The translations under genes were made by a program, and so were the position numbers. A stretch of DNA of 64,000 bases from Comamonadaceae bacterium (GTDB taxonomy: Bacteria; Pseudomonadota; Gammaproteobacteria; Burkholderiales; Burkholderiaceae_C): NCBI GenBank assembly GCA_947478725.1, contig CANJWZ010000011.1, forward strand, positions 40,687 through 104,686, given 5' to 3'. Under the pieces are notes generated by a model. The model did no database searches, was not told the DNA's origin, and was given only the letters and a program-made list of their open reading frames with translations. This document shows positions 57,123 to 64,000 of the stretch, piece after piece; within the stretch, counting starts at the first letter, position 1; the number at the start of each line of letters is the position of its first letter.

Positions 57123-58202
57123 ATGGATCGTCGTTCCCTCATTAAAAATGCTGGCATTGCCGGCGTGCTGGCCGCTGGCGTAGCGCCTGCTGTACACGCA
57201 CAGGCGGCAGTGCGCTGGCGCCTTGCGTCCAGCTTTCCCAAGTCACTGGACACCATCTTCGGTGCCGCGGATACTTTCTCGAAAGCCGTCAAGGCCATGT
57301 CGGGCGGCAAGTTTGAGGTTTCGGTTCATGCTGCGGGCGAGCTGATGCCTGCTTTTGGTGTGGTAGACGGCGTGCAGCAAGGGTCGATAGAGTGCGCGCA
57401 CACCGCTCCTTACTATTTCTTTGGCAAGGACGAAACTTTTGCGCTGGGCTGCGCCATTCCTTTTGGCCTGAACAGCCGCCAGATGACAGCCTGGATGTAC
57501 GAAGGCAACGGCATGAAGCTGATGCGCGAGTTCTACGCCAAGTACAACATCGTCAACTTCCCAGGCGGCAACACCGGCGCGCAAATGGGCGGCTGGTACC
57601 GCAAAGAGATCAAAACCTTGGCCGACATGAAAGGCCTGAAAATGCGCATCGGCGGCTTCGGCGGTAAGGTGCTGGAAAAATTGGGTTCGGTGCCGCAAAA
57701 CATTCCCGGTGGCGAGATTTATCAAGCGCTGGAAAAAGGCACGATTGACGCCGCCGAATGGGTAGGCCCCTACGACGACCAGAAACTGGGCTTTAACAAA
57801 GTGGCTCCGTTTTACTACTACCCTGGCTGGTGGGAGGGCGGCCCTGAGCTGGACTTCTTCATCAACAACAAGGCATTTGAAGCGCTCACCCCTGAGTACA
57901 AGGCGATTGTTGAAGCCGCGGCCGCACAGGCCCACACGACCATGCAGGCCAGATATGACGCGCTCAATCCAATAGCCCTCAAGCAGCTCGTGGGTGCAAA
58001 AACCAAGCTGCGTCCCTTCCCGAAAGACGTGATGAACGCCGCGTTCAAGGCTTCAATGGCTTTGTACGACGAACTGTCTGCCAAGAACGAAAACTGGAAA
58101 AAAATCTACGCTGACTACTCCAAGTTCCGCGCAGACCAGAACCTGTGGTTCCGTTTCACAGAAGCGTCGTTTGACAAGTTCATGCAAGATCAAAAGTTGT
58201 AA
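57123..58202 (+). CDS. dctP: TRAP transporter solute-binding protein (DctP family, TakP-like)
   Basis: The 359-residue periplasmic receptor has a twin-arginine-type signal (MDRRSLIKNAGIAG ... VHAQA) and the TRAP fold with VRWRLASSFPKSLDTIFG, the ligand-arginine region LKMRIGGFGGKV and IDAAEWVGPYDDQKLGF. The EWVGPYDD sequence places it near the TakP group that binds 2-oxo acids or lactate. The permease genes lie 0.7 kb away on the other strand (58873-61016). The gene has its own promoter and terminator, so receptor and permeases are separate transcripts. Confidence 0.92.
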   Translation: MDRRSLIKNAGIAGVLAAGVAPAVHAQAAVRWRLASSFPKSLDTIFGAADTFSKAVKAMSGGKFEVSVHAAGELMPAFGVVDGVQQGSIECAHTAPYYFFGKDETFALGCAIPFGLNSRQMTAWMYEGNGMKLMREFYAKYNIVNFPGGNTGAQMGGWYRKEIKTLADMKGLKMRIGGFGGKVLEKLGSVPQNIPGGEIYQALEKGTIDAAEWVGPYDDQKLGFNKVAPFYYYPGWWEGGPELDFFINNKAFEALTPEYKAIVEAAAAQAHTTMQARYDALNPIALKQLVGAKTKLRPFPKDVMNAAFKASMALYDELSAKNENWKKIYADYSKFRADQNLWFRFTEASFDKFMQDQKL

Positions 58203-58872: not shown

Positions 58873-60423
58873 CTATTTGCCTTTGAATAACTCGTCCATC
58901 TTTTTTTGTTCGTCGTCAGAACTGGTCGCGTCTGATTTTGGTGCCAGAGGGTCACTGCCAGCCGCGCCGCTGGCGGCTGTGCCCGGGGCCGTCACCGGGT
59001 CAGGCGTTTCCATGGGCATTTCAATCTTTACCTTGTCGATGTCAATTTTTTCTTCCTTGTCCAAGAACATGGTGACAGTTTGGGGCACAAAGATCACGAT
59101 CAGAACCAGAATCATCTGCATGGCCACCCAGGGAATCGCTCCCAGGTAAATGTCGTTGGACTTGATGGCTTCGGGAATACGTTTTTCCTTGAACAGCGTG
59201 TCGGCAATACCGCGCAAGTAAAACAGAGCAAAGCCAAACGGTGGGTGCATGAAGCTGGTTTGCATGTTCACGCACAGCAGCACGCCGAACCAGATCGGGT
59301 TGATGCCCAGCTTGACCGCCACCGGGCCCAGCATCGGCAAGATGATGAAGGCAATCTCAAAAAAGTCCAGGAAGAAGGCCAGGAAGAAAATGAAGATGTT
59401 GACAACGATCAGAAAGCCGGTTTGGCCGCCTGGCAAGCCAGTCAGCAAATGCTCAACCCACTTGGCACCGTCCACGCCCTGAAACACCATGGAGAACACG
59501 CGCGCACCAATCAGGATAAACACCACCATGGCAGTCAGGCGCATGGTGCCGCTCATGGCTTCCCAGATCAGCGCCATCGTCAGGCGCTTGTGAATGGCCG
59601 CCAGCACCAGCGCACCCACCACGCCCATGGCACCGGCTTCAGTCGGTGTGGCAATGGCGGTGTTGATGCCCGGCAGGCCGCCCATCGATCCAAGCACTGC
59701 AAAAATCAGGATGGCTGAGGGAATGATGCCGCGCAGGCATTTTCCCCACAAGGCCCAGCCGTGCAGGGTGCGTGCCTCTTTGGGCACACCCGGCACATGG
59801 TGCGGCTTGAAAACACCCAGAAGATAGGTGTAGGCTGCAAAAATCAGCACCTGCAAAATTGACGGGCCCCAGGCGCCCTTGTACATGTCACCCACAGACT
59901 GGCCCAATTGGTCGGCCATCACGATCAGCACCAGCGAAGGCGGCACCAGCTGCGTGATGGTGCCTGACGCCGCCAGCACGCCAGTGGCGTAGCGCATGTT
60001 GTAGCCGTAACGGATCATCACGGGCAGCGAAATCATGGCCATGGCAATCACCTGACCTGCCACCGTGCCGGTGATCGCGCCCAGGATAAAACCCACGATG
60101 ATGACGGAATAACCCAGGCCGCCCTTGGCCGGGCCAAACAGCTGACCCATGGAATCGAGCATGTCTTCTGCCAGGCCGCATTTTTCAAGAATCGAGCCCA
60201 TGAAGGTGAAAAACGGAATGGCCAGCAGCAGGTCGTTTGACAAAATGCCAAACATATTGAGCGGCAGATTGGACATGAAGCTGGCCGGGAACCAGCCCAT
60301 TTCAATGGCCAGAAAGCCAGAGCCCAGGCCCAGCGCTGCCAGTGAGAAAGCCACTGGAAAGCCAATCAGCATGATCAGCACGAGGCCCGCGAACATGATC
60401 GGTGCGAAATTTTCCATTTGCAT
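58873..60423 (-). CDS. dctM: TRAP transporter large permease (DctM) with extended C-terminus
   Basis: The 516-residue permease has about 12 hydrophobic helices with the DctM sequences IPFFTFMGSILEKCGLAEDML and SGTITQLVPPSLVLIVMA. The core of the family is about 430 residues. Here a loop enlargement in the middle and a hydrophilic tail of about 60 residues (KIEMPMETPDPVTAPG ... DELFKGK) account for the excess. It carries out sodium-driven uptake with DctQ and the DctP receptor at 57123. It is the second gene of dctQ-dctM. Confidence 0.94.
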   Translation of the reverse strand: MQMENFAPIMFAGLVLIMLIGFPVAFSLAALGLGSGFLAIEMGWFPASFMSNLPLNMFGILSNDLLLAIPFFTFMGSILEKCGLAEDMLDSMGQLFGPAKGGLGYSVIIVGFILGAITGTVAGQVIAMAMISLPVMIRYGYNMRYATGVLAASGTITQLVPPSLVLIVMADQLGQSVGDMYKGAWGPSILQVLIFAAYTYLLGVFKPHHVPGVPKEARTLHGWALWGKCLRGIIPSAILIFAVLGSMGGLPGINTAIATPTEAGAMGVVGALVLAAIHKRLTMALIWEAMSGTMRLTAMVVFILIGARVFSMVFQGVDGAKWVEHLLTGLPGGQTGFLIVVNIFIFFLAFFLDFFEIAFIILPMLGPVAVKLGINPIWFGVLLCVNMQTSFMHPPFGFALFYLRGIADTLFKEKRIPEAIKSNDIYLGAIPWVAMQMILVLIVIFVPQTVTMFLDKEEKIDIDKVKIEMPMETPDPVTAPGTAASGAAGSDPLAPKSDATSSDDEQKKMDELFKGK

Positions 60424-60476
60424 TTTTATTGTCCTGAAACGACTTGAAGGGAGATGAACCGTTGAGCGGCAGCCGC

Positions 60477-61016
60477 TTATTGAACCGGCTTTTCGTAATG
60501 CGTGTTCATCTCGAACTTGCCAGCCAGATAGCTGACGCGCTTGATGATTTCAGAAATGCCCTGCAAAAACATCATGCCAAAACCCACCGGCAACAGCAGC
60601 ATGGCGGGCCAGCGAATCAGGCCGCCTGCGTTGGGCGACATTTCTCCGGACTTGTACATGCTGATGAACAAGGGCCAGCTCAGGTAAGCCAGCAAAGCCA
60701 TGACTGGCAACAGGAAAAATATCAGGCCAAAAATATCAACATAGACCGGACCGTTGCCTTTGAGTTTGCCGTAAATGATGTCAACCCGCACATGTTCATT
60801 GAGCTTGAGAACATACGGTGCGCCCAGCATCACCATGGCTGCAAACAGATACCACTGGATTTCAAGCCAGCCGTTCGAGCTGAGGTCAAAACCATAGCGT
60901 ACAAACGCGTTACCCGACGAGATCAGGGCTGCCAGCAACACAGCCCAGGAGGCTATTTTGCCGATTTGGGCGGCCAGCCAGTCGTACGCCAATGCAAGTT
61001 TGAGTAATGCAGCCAC
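60477..61016 (-). CDS. dctQ: TRAP transporter small permease (DctQ)
   Basis: The protein is 179 residues from GTG 61016, which has GGAG nine bases upstream; a TTG start five codons earlier would overlap that site. It has four hydrophobic segments and the DctQ-type sequences SNGWLEIQWYLFAAMVMLGAPYVLKLNEHVRVDI (about residues 46-80). It associates with DctM in the membrane. First gene of the permease operon, 53 bp before dctM. Confidence 0.92.
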   Translation of the reverse strand: MAALLKLALAYDWLAAQIGKIASWAVLLAALISSGNAFVRYGFDLSSNGWLEIQWYLFAAMVMLGAPYVLKLNEHVRVDIIYGKLKGNGPVYVDIFGLIFFLLPVMALLAYLSWPLFISMYKSGEMSPNAGGLIRWPAMLLLPVGFGMMFLQGISEIIKRVSYLAGKFEMNTHYEKPVQ

Positions 61017-61184
61017 GTGAAGAGTCTCCAAAAATGGGCGGGATGGTTTCTAAAAACAAAAGGGCCATGCAAATATGCAGCCGACTTGCACCGATGGTAA
61101 CTGCGAAGGCAAGACGGCTACTTAAGGAATGTCAACCTAAAAAACTCGGGAAAACCCTGGTCTTTCCACAAGGGTCCTCAAGGG

Positions 61185-62249
61185 TCAATAAACGCTGACG
61201 CCGCTGCCTTGCGCCACTTCACCGATCACCGCCGCCTCTGCAAAGCCTTGCGTGTGAAAGATCTCTAGCACTTGGCGTGCCAGGTCCGGGCGGCATGACA
61301 CCAACAATCCGCCCGAGGTTTGCGGGTCGCTCAGCAGCGCCTTGTCGGCTTCAGCAAAAACGCCAGGCAGCGTGACTTCATTGCCATAACTTTCCCAGTT
61401 GCGGCCAGAAGCACCGGTGACGCATCCTTGCGCTGCCAGCTCGCGCACGCCAGCAATCAGCGGCATGCGCGACCAGTCCAGGCGAATTTGCACTTTTGCG
61501 CCTCTGGCCAACTCCATCGTATGTCCTGCCAGGCCAAAGCCGGTGATGTCGGTCAAAGCGTGCACCCCATCGAGGGCGGCCAGCGCGATGCCGGGTTTGT
61601 TCAATTGCGTGGTCACTTCAATCATCTTGGCGTAGCCTGCGGGCGGCAGCATTTCTTTTTTCAAGGCAGCAGACAAAATGCCCACGCCCAGCGGTTTGCT
61701 CATGACCAGCACATCGCCCACTTTGGCGCCGGAGTTTTTCTTGACCCTGGACGGATGCACCAGGCCCAGCACCACCAAGCCATAAATCGGCTCGACTGAA
61801 TCAATCGTGTGGCCACCGGCAATCGGGATGCCAGCATCGCGGCACACGTCCTGCCCGCCGCGCAAAATCGCGCCTATGACGTCCAGCGGCAGCACATTGA
61901 TCGGCATGCCGACCAGGCCCAGCGCCATGATGGGTGTGCCGCCCATGGCGTACACATCGCTGATGGCGTTGGTTGCGGCGATGCGGCCAAAGTCATACGG
62001 GTCATCGACGATGGGCATGAAAAAGTCGGTGGTGGCAATCAGCGCCTGGTTTTCATTGAGCAGGTACACCGCCGCGTCGTCTGCGGTCTCAATGCCCACC
62101 AGCAGTTCCGGGGGAATCGGCAGATTGCTGGAGTTTTTCAAGATTTCACTGAGCACGCCTGGCGCAATCTTGCAGCCACAGCCGCCGCCATGGGACAGGC
62201 TGGTCAGGCGCGGAGCCACAAGCGAGCTGAGTTTTTCGGGGGCGTTCAT
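61185..62249 (-). CDS. senC: Selenophosphate synthetase (SelD homologue; likely SenC)
   Basis: The 354-residue protein has the catalytic SHGGGCGCK motif (C24 and K27, matching C17 and K20 of E. coli SelD), DDAAVYLLNENQALIATTDFFMPIVDDPYDFG and GHTIDSVEP. It makes selenophosphate from selenide and ATP. Its start overlaps the stop of the glycosyltransferase gene by 4 bp (ATGA). Together with that gene and the EgtB-like gene it matches the selenoneine cluster, where the SelD homologue is called SenC. A plain selD serving tRNA or protein selenation cannot be excluded; no selA, selB or selU is in the window. Confidence 0.9.
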   Translation of the reverse strand: MNAPEKLSSLVAPRLTSLSHGGGCGCKIAPGVLSEILKNSSNLPIPPELLVGIETADDAAVYLLNENQALIATTDFFMPIVDDPYDFGRIAATNAISDVYAMGGTPIMALGLVGMPINVLPLDVIGAILRGGQDVCRDAGIPIAGGHTIDSVEPIYGLVVLGLVHPSRVKKNSGAKVGDVLVMSKPLGVGILSAALKKEMLPPAGYAKMIEVTTQLNKPGIALAALDGVHALTDITGFGLAGHTMELARGAKVQIRLDWSRMPLIAGVRELAAQGCVTGASGRNWESYGNEVTLPGVFAEADKALLSDPQTSGGLLVSCRPDLARQVLEIFHTQGFAEAAVIGEVAQGSGVSVY

Positions 62250-63208
62250 GGCGATTCCTTGATGACAGATGCGAGCAATTTTAAAACATGGCGCTTTTCA
62301 ACAGCCGGCTCAAACAATTCGGCCCGCAACGCGCACTGGTTTTGTAAATGTGCCAAAAAGGCAGGCTCAGTTGCGCAGCGTTTGACCAGCGCTGCCAGTC
62401 CAGCGGCATCGCCCACATCAAAATAGCCCGCGTAGTCAGCCCCCAGCATGCCCAGATTGCCGCTGATGCGGGATGCCAGCACCGGCGTGCCCGACTGCAC
62501 GGCCTCCAGAATCACATGCGCACCGCCTTCCATGACAGAACTGTTCACCAGCACATGGGCGCGTTTGATGCGTTGGCGCGTCAGGGGGCGGGGCAGGCCG
62601 CCCAACCAGCGGTAGTGGGGAAGTTGGTCTGCTGCCAGGCGCGCCGCATCAGCCAGCGCGGCATCCAGCCCAGCGCCGATCTGGTCAAAGTACGCAGCAC
62701 CTGCGCACAGCCTTGCCGCTTGCATAAACGTCACCGGGTCTTTTTCGTCGCGCAAATGGCCCACCATCACCACCCTGAAACGCTGACTGGATTTAACGGC
62801 TGGGCTCAAGCGCGGTGCAGACTGAAAAATCACGCACGCTTTGCGTTGCAGTTCTTGGGAAAGTTCTGCCAAGCCTTCCTCTTGCAGCACCACCAGTTGG
62901 GTTGCCAGCCGCAAAGACTGCTGTGCATCGGCGCCCCGGTGAATGTCGCGGTACAAATCGGTGCCGGTCAGCACAACGATCAAAGGCTTGTGCGGATGCT
63001 GCGCCGCCCAGGCGTGAATAGCCGGTGCAGAACGCCGCGCATGCAGCGCAATCATGGCATCCGGCGTTTCACCGTCCGCGTTCCATTGCTGTGTGACTGC
63101 AATGTCACAATGTCCAGAGAGAAACTTTGCCCAGCGGTGTGCGGTATGCCAGTTGCCATTGTTGGCCTCTCTTGAGGCTGGGCTCACCAGGACTATTTTT
63201 GACTTCAA
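62246..63208 (-). CDS. senB: Selenosugar synthase-type glycosyltransferase (SenB)
   Basis: The protein is 320 residues from TTG 63208, with AAGG eight bases upstream; a longer upstream frame overlaps senA and has no family match before KIVLVSPASREANNGNW. It is a GT-B glycosyltransferase with a C-terminal nucleotide-sugar motif (SSVMEGGAHVILEAVQSGTPVLAS, about residues 230-253). In selenoneine synthesis SenB joins selenophosphate to a UDP-sugar to give a selenosugar. It is coupled to the SelD homologue and divergent from the EgtB-like gene with only 41 bp between starts. Confidence 0.88.
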   Translation of the reverse strand: MKSKIVLVSPASREANNGNWHTAHRWAKFLSGHCDIAVTQQWNADGETPDAMIALHARRSAPAIHAWAAQHPHKPLIVVLTGTDLYRDIHRGADAQQSLRLATQLVVLQEEGLAELSQELQRKACVIFQSAPRLSPAVKSSQRFRVVMVGHLRDEKDPVTFMQAARLCAGAAYFDQIGAGLDAALADAARLAADQLPHYRWLGGLPRPLTRQRIKRAHVLVNSSVMEGGAHVILEAVQSGTPVLASRISGNLGMLGADYAGYFDVGDAAGLAALVKRCATEPAFLAHLQNQCALRAELFEPAVEKRHVLKLLASVIKESP

Positions 63209-63249
63209 GCAAAACACCTTTTCATGCCAACTTTGCAACGGCAACCAGC

Positions 63250-64000
63250 ATGGCCGGCCAGATCGATTTGCCCACCATGCGTAGCGGCGGCCGGGCGATG
63301 CTGTCGCTGGCGTTGATGGATGCGCGCAATCATACGCTGCACCTTTTTGCGCAGTATCAAAACGCACTTGAAGCGGCAAATTATGTGGTGCCCCAACTGG
63401 CCACGGTCAACCCGCCTTTGTGGGAGCTGGGCCACATCGGCTGGTTTCAGGAATGGTGGATTGCCCGCAACATGCAACGCGCACTGGGCCCGCGCTGCGA
63501 GCCGGCGCACACGCGGCTGGCCAGCATTGAGCCCAACGCCGACCGATGGTGGGACAGCACCCATGTACCGCACAGCACACGCTGGCAACTTGACTTGCTT
63601 GATGCCAACAGTATCCGCAGCTATTTGCTCAACACGCTCGAAGGCACGCTGGACTTGCTCGAAAAGGCCGGCGACAGCGACGACGCCCTGTACTTTTACC
63701 GGCTGTGCCTGTTCCATGAAGACATGCATGCCGAAGCAATGGTGTACACCGCCCAAACGCTGGGTTTGGCGCTTGACAAACCCATGCAGCAAGCCTTCAC
63801 CCCGGCCCCCATGAGCTTGCGCGAACCGCTTTTGGTGCCGGCTTGCACCTGGGCCTTGGGCAGCAGCCTAATTGATGGGTTTTCGTTTGACAACGAAAGA
63901 CCGCAGCACAGTGTGACCGTGCCGGAATTTGAAATTGACGCCCAGCCTGTGACCTGGGCGCAGTACGTCGAGTTTGTCGACGACGATGGCTATGACCGCC
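63250..64000 (+). CDS. senA: Selenoneine synthase SenA (EgtB-like), N-terminal part
   Basis: The frame from ATG 63250 is open to the right edge (250 codons). The first 190 residues are a DinB-like four-helix domain with the iron ligands expected of EgtB-type enzymes: H62 in ELGHIGWF, H156 and H160 in FHEDMHAEA. A formylglycine-generating-enzyme-like domain starts near residue 199 (TWALGSSLIDGFSFDNERPQHSVTV). EgtB couples hercynine and a thiol; SenA couples hercynine and the selenosugar. Linkage to senB and the SelD homologue favours SenA. ATG 63277 is an alternative start; no clear Shine-Dalgarno is seen. Confidence 0.85.
   Translation, partial: MAGQIDLPTMRSGGRAMLSLALMDARNHTLHLFAQYQNALEAANYVVPQLATVNPPLWELGHIGWFQEWWIARNMQRALGPRCEPAHTRLASIEPNADRWWDSTHVPHSTRWQLDLLDANSIRSYLLNTLEGTLDLLEKAGDSDDALYFYRLCLFHEDMHAEAMVYTAQTLGLALDKPMQQAFTPAPMSLREPLLVPACTWALGSSLIDGFSFDNERPQHSVTVPEFEIDAQPVTWAQYVEFVDDDGYDR

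Follow-up and report, generated by a model that had tools for sequence, protein, structure and literature searches.

Results

Gene content of the locus

The window, by which we mean the whole stretch of 64,000 nt that was analysed (G000:C11:40687-104686), ends on the right exactly where contig C11 ends, and the genes considered here lie against that end (Table 1). A gene for a SelD-family selenophosphate synthetase, senC, overlaps a gene for a GT-B glycosyltransferase, senB, and senA is read in the opposite direction across a gap of 41 bp when its start is placed at ATG 63250. The initial annotation had described this set as a SelD homologue overlapping a glycosyltransferase gene with a divergent EgtB-like gene nearby; its boundaries were recovered as given, and family models and a tree support the identity of the genes as senA, senB and senC. 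The overlapping senB and senC are probably co-transcribed. A scan of positions 60350-63600 for promoters and terminators returned no sigma-70-like sites (shuffle mean 1.2) and six terminator-like ones (mean 4.7), neither count being informative, and Rfam at gathering thresholds gave no match in the entire window. Five same-genus loci match named Polaromonas records exactly over the senA/senB start region (L045=L095, L037=L096, L048=L097, L043=L098, L050=L100), and from this we infer Polaromonas as the source genus.

Table 1. Features of the senA-senBC locus and its surroundings (window positions unless another locus is named)
Feature	Position	Strand	Description
senC	61185..62249	-	SelD-family selenophosphate synthetase, 354 aa, ATG start
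senB	62246..63208	-	GT-B selenosugar synthase, 320 aa, TTG start
senB stop/senC start overlap	62246..62249	-	ATGA, 4 bp common to both genes
Likely ribosome-binding sequence of senB	63215..63222	-	AAAAGGTG, six bases upstream of TTG
Gap between senB and senA starts	63209..63249		41 bp
senA, first 250 codons	63250..64000	+	truncated by the end of contig C11
senA remainder, codon 48 to stop	L002 979-2109	-	end of contig C24, same assembly
dctQ and dctM	58873-61031	-	TRAP genes, following senC on the same strand
dctP	57123-58202	+	TRAP gene beyond dctQ and dctM, opposite strand

SenB and SenC

SenB scored 441.5 bits against TIGR04348, the NCBI selenosugar synthase model (cut-off 300, E = 1.3e-132), and SenC scored 536.9 bits against the SelD equivalog model (cut-off 299, E = 1.8e-161) and 427.1 against TIGR00476 (cut-off 125); the E-values of the SenB and SelD models rule out chance. 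The solved chains closest to SenB were 8k5u, 8jjq, 8fbx and 8jjn, at 314-321 bits. For V. paradoxus SenB, excerpts of PMC10891094 name N20, T23, K158 and E231 as donor or catalytic residues, Q131, H235 and E239 as further contacts, and V157 as contacting the acetyl group. The window's SenB carries the counterparts N19, T22, Q129, K156, E227, H231 and E235, all of which except H231 are invariant across a 13-row alignment, while position 157 differs, being Val in V. paradoxus and Glu155 here. The TTG start proposed for senB is retained in all four members of the window's clade (the window, L038, L041 and L091), each with AAAAGGTG six bases before it as read by eye. Among the genomes searched, SenB was above cut-off in 36 of 61, and none of the 14 named control genomes reached it, weaker matches being present in all 14.

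SenC carries the AIRS (PF00586) and AIRS_C (PF02769) domains. Its closest solved chain is the SelD structure 3u0o, with which its CGCK motif near the N-terminus aligns; in E. coli SelD, Cys17 and Lys20 of the Cys..Lys motif have a catalytic role. Its position adjoining senB, with the 4-bp overlap, also places this SelD-type gene within the cluster.

SenA and its separation from EgtB

On their own, the 250 SenA codons of the window scored 264.8 bits on the SenA model (cut-off 420), covering profile positions 2-226 of 382, and 106.4 bits on the EgtB model; the piece stays under the SenA cut-off because the gene is truncated by the contig end. The initial annotation had proposed completing senA to the right, and this succeeded in part: a remainder was found on contig C24, but the window's piece ends with C11 and a single intact gene was not obtained, the two pieces being 95.2% identical in DNA across a 609-bp overlap and left unjoined. 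This degree of identity suggests two co-assembled strains. The gene past senA on C24 has a PBP-like domain, and in G015, a near relative, the same gene comes after senA. A second sen locus, an idea raised by the second senA match, was rejected on account of this shared neighbour. Most likely, the ends of C11 and C24 represent one locus broken by assembly, and two senA copies, each at a contig end, are just about conceivable.

The C24 piece scored 471.9 bits on the SenA model NF041186 (cut-off 420) and 235.6 bits, from profile position 31 on, against the cut-off of 360 on the EgtB model TIGR03440; it carries the EgtB-related signature TIGR04373 and reached 67.1 bits of the 400 set as cut-off for the ovoA model. 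Among solved chains, SenA 8ryz and 8k5i were closest (330 bits), ahead of OvsA (179 and 170) and EgtB (138). The product had been described as an EgtB-like enzyme with three iron-binding histidines and an FGE-like domain, and both traits were confirmed: the Pfam FGE-sulfatase domain scored 33.1 bits (cut-off 23.3), and SenA of the window has His62, His156 and His160, which on the C24 piece of the gene align with histidines of EgtB 4x8b. In excerpts of PMC4768315, the iron ligands of EgtB are His51, His134 and His138. The SenA histidines are kept in 24, 23 and 22, respectively, of the 24 SenA-labelled rows.

In a midpoint-rooted tree of 35 rows, from which one duplicate EgtB row and the 250 codons lying in the window were omitted, a 100/100 branch split all eight EgtB rows from the 27 rows of the SenA side (22 SenA, four SenA-like and the window's gene, represented by its C24 piece); within that side, the C24 piece groups with G015 and then G012. 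Fifteen alignment columns separate the 22 SenA from the eight EgtB rows at a level of at least 90%, with the sets labelled from earlier model scores, and the window agrees with SenA at all 15. Loci L148, L195 and L196 yielded no match that got through the filters. The initial annotation had left room for the EgtB-like gene being a true EgtB by phylogeny, or the glycosyltransferase belonging to another family; the outcome favoured the sen identity.

The start of senA is less certain than that annotation implied. ATG 63250 is the simplest choice, but it is not kept in relatives, which have GTG (L041), ACT (L038) or GTA (L091) at its position. For this reason, a later start at ATG 63277, leaving a gap of 68 bp, was considered; it was rejected as the variation in codons 5-8, all of which precede it, falls mainly on the third base, with entropies of 0.25, 0.08 and 1.07 bits by codon position in 32 Polaromonas-type segments, and the start is thus at or before codon 4. 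In the same segments, codons 1-4 are ambiguous (1.32, 0.87 and 1.31 bits) and codons 19-30 show clear codon constraint (0.17, 0.02 and 0.62 bits). With ATG 63250 as the simplest candidate, the in-frame TTG at 63199, with which senA and senB would have 10 bases in common, could also serve as the start.

Head-to-head layout among relatives

The divergent order had been presented as a departure from the arrangement in Variovorax, and this did not hold. We fetched 116 loci with a SenB match, 28 of which lacked a SenA match in the fetched stretch; in 87 of the remaining 88, some being copies of one locus, senA and senB are head-to-head, and these include a Variovorax MAG (L142). The lone exception, L046, has on the same strand, 4 kb away, a SenA-like protein of only 32% identity. 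As a rule, the two genes diverge in the fetched relatives, and the sen gene set and order are common to the window and its relatives. Counted from the most downstream possible start codons in 75 distinct loci, window included, the median start-to-start gap is 49 bp, with at most 80 bp in 56 loci and at most 120 bp in 69; these counts leave out identical segments, the loci with a 2.2-kb insert, L046 with its genes on one strand, and gaps below -60 or above 400. A senA-senB gap of 2.2 kb was seen in eight loci, two of which (L056 and L106) look like one locus, and at L044 (5587-7587) a 666-aa ORF with no NCBIfam or Pfam match lies between the two genes.

The TRAP neighbourhood recurs at many Polaromonas-type sen loci. 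Every locus with a DctM match of at least 43% has a SenB with 60% or more identity to that of the window; shared descent explains these matches, and no functional link to the TRAP genes is claimed.

Variant loci

An alternative layout is seen at L057 (8291-10582), where egtD and senB are followed by a 763-aa oxidoreductase-SelD fusion. As in the window, SenB is paired with a selenophosphate synthetase, but SelD is there the C-terminal part of the fusion (TIGR03169 502 bits, selD 285.5), whereas the window's SenC stands alone; the fetched stretch of L057 gave no SenA match. The spacing after senB is similar in, for example, L055, L062, L067, L132 and L143, which may share this layout. At L199 (G005) and L053, senA lies beside senC without senB, and senB is found with egtD on another contig.

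Four further loci (L189, L190, L191 and L192, of G013, G022, G034 and G007, respectively) encode SenA-like proteins that are placed within Polaromonas SenA by the tree but lack two of the three iron histidines, His62 being replaced by Arg and His160 by Gln or Arg in all four; their genomes have no SenB or EgtD above cut-off. These proteins are perhaps repurposed SenA. In the near-complete genomes G024 (L193) and G032 (L194), SenA adjoins SelD, and EgtD and EgtB are present with no SenB above cut-off. The 100% complete genome G050 has a SenB of 444 bits (L035 7127-8131) and no SenA or EgtD above cut-off, and its selenosugar may have another fate. In G028, the senA frame is broken (L048 6125-7373), through pseudogene formation or an error in sequencing.

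Other selenium genes and hercynine supply

The search for egtD that had been recommended located it in the assembly, unlinked to the sen genes, at C52:17693-18601 (364 bits, cut-off 290.9), and this EgtD is a likely source of hercynine. The assembly is given as 98.98% complete with 1.33% contamination, and no EgtB above cut-off was found in it. The lack of EgtB was discarded as a unique feature: 6 of 17 comparable genomes are in the same state (G000, G038, G039, G047, G048 and G052), the comparable ones being, by our own count, those of at least 95% completeness with SenA, SenB and EgtD above cut-off.

SenC is the sole SelD above cut-off in the assembly, the other match reaching 38 bits. Also present are the tRNA selenouridine synthase SelU (355.6 bits, cut-off 219.75) and two SelA (572.1 and 556 bits). 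The latter belong to two separate selenocysteine loci, L170 on contig C43 and L171 on C8, each with SelA and tRNA-Sec, a condition rare for the genus, and each with SelB-like and thioredoxin-reductase-like ORFs, named by eye. An ORF near the C43 set has an in-frame TGA in a Sec-Gly-Ala-Cys context; it passed the Pfam UGSC model (68 bits, cut-off 25), failed that of NCBIfam (36.3 against 125) and is likely a UGSC-type selenoprotein. SelA was above cut-off in only 2 of 37 same-genus genomes (G000 and G036), and it is therefore possible that the SelA contigs are contaminants.

Discussion

The three genes very probably constitute the known sen cluster, and its predicted product is selenoneine. The assignment to this pathway is well supported, with selenoneine as a prediction made from sequence, and the genome is an ordinary but sound addition to a known pathway; a literature search for Polaromonas together with selenoneine found no paper. 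In the published chemistry, as given in PMC9814287 and in excerpts of PMC10702425 and PMC10903977, selenide is converted by SenC to selenophosphate, by SenB to a selenosugar and by SenA, with hercynine, to a selenoxide that leads to selenoneine. By homology, SenC of the window would use ATP to turn selenide into selenophosphate, and SenB would place its selenium onto a UDP-sugar, probably UDP-GlcNAc; with its three-His iron centre and O2, SenA would couple the selenosugar to hercynine, likely provided by the unlinked EgtD, and breakdown of the selenoxide followed by reduction would yield selenoneine. Transcription of senA would run opposite to that of senB-senC from the 41-bp gap, in a layout common to relatives. 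The cluster shares its three families, the SenB catalytic residues and the SenA iron ligands with that of V. paradoxus DSM 30034 and differs from it in that EgtD is unlinked to sen; EgtD, the fold and the three iron histidines also belong to the EgtB/EgtD pathway of ergothioneine, but SenA of the window scores below the EgtB cut-off and forms a separate branch. Several observations weigh against this reading: senA lies on two contigs with 95.2% DNA identity, hence one intact gene is not established; the sen set is not always whole in relatives, G024 and G032 being without SenB above cut-off and G028 having a broken senA frame; SenB has Glu155 in place of the Val157 of V. paradoxus; and the SelA contigs could be contaminants.

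These three relatives, together with the position of SenC as the sole SelD above cut-off in a genome with two SelA and SelU, would fit a senC retained only as a housekeeping SelD for selenocysteine and selenouridine, with decaying senA and senB beside it; we find this very unlikely, as the reading frames of senB and of the senA pieces are open, with the catalytic residues in place, and codon constraint is clear at codons 19-30 of Polaromonas-type SenA. There is only a slight chance of a different selenium product, for instance a free selenosugar or a compound resembling ovoselenol: the solved SenA chains score far higher than OvsA, the ovoA model was barely matched and EgtD is present, against which stand the relationship of SenA to OvsA at 179 bits and the occurrence of SenB without SenA or EgtD above cut-off in G050. 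That the divergent gene is a true EgtB for ergothioneine, its neighbours serving another selenium use, is hardly credible: SenA does share with EgtB its fold, the three iron histidines and the domains DinB_2 and FGE, and EgtD is present, but the C24 piece lies above the SenA and below the EgtB cut-off and outside the EgtB branch.

With the sen cluster as the preferred reading, the position of SenC deserves attention. As the sole SelD above cut-off, it would also have to supply the two SelA selenocysteine loci and the tRNA selenouridine synthase, so that, given correct binning, three uses of selenium would depend on a single sen gene. Excerpts of PMC11448449 and PMC10903977 give SelD and SenC as alternative names, and a part for SenC in other selenium uses is thus expected rather than radical. 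A bolder proposal, which we consider doubtful, is that the sen operon acts as a master selenium valve: with SenC as the sole source of selenophosphate, the 41-bp divergent region would set selenoneine output as well as what reaches the two selenocysteine systems and tRNA selenouridine; without EgtB, all hercynine would go to selenoneine; and the start spacing of at most 80 bp in 56 of 75 loci would reflect a conserved shared switch, with interlocked promoters extending into the opposing genes.

Overall, the locus adds a well-supported Polaromonas member to the small number of dedicated pathways by which selenium enters a small molecule, and the idea of head-to-head senA and senBC as something unusual is corrected. 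The interest of the locus lies mostly in its sole-SelD context and in the widely kept, short start-to-start gap, and these raise the questions of how selenoneine, selenocysteine and selenouridine would share one SelD and how so short a gap allows two transcripts to start.
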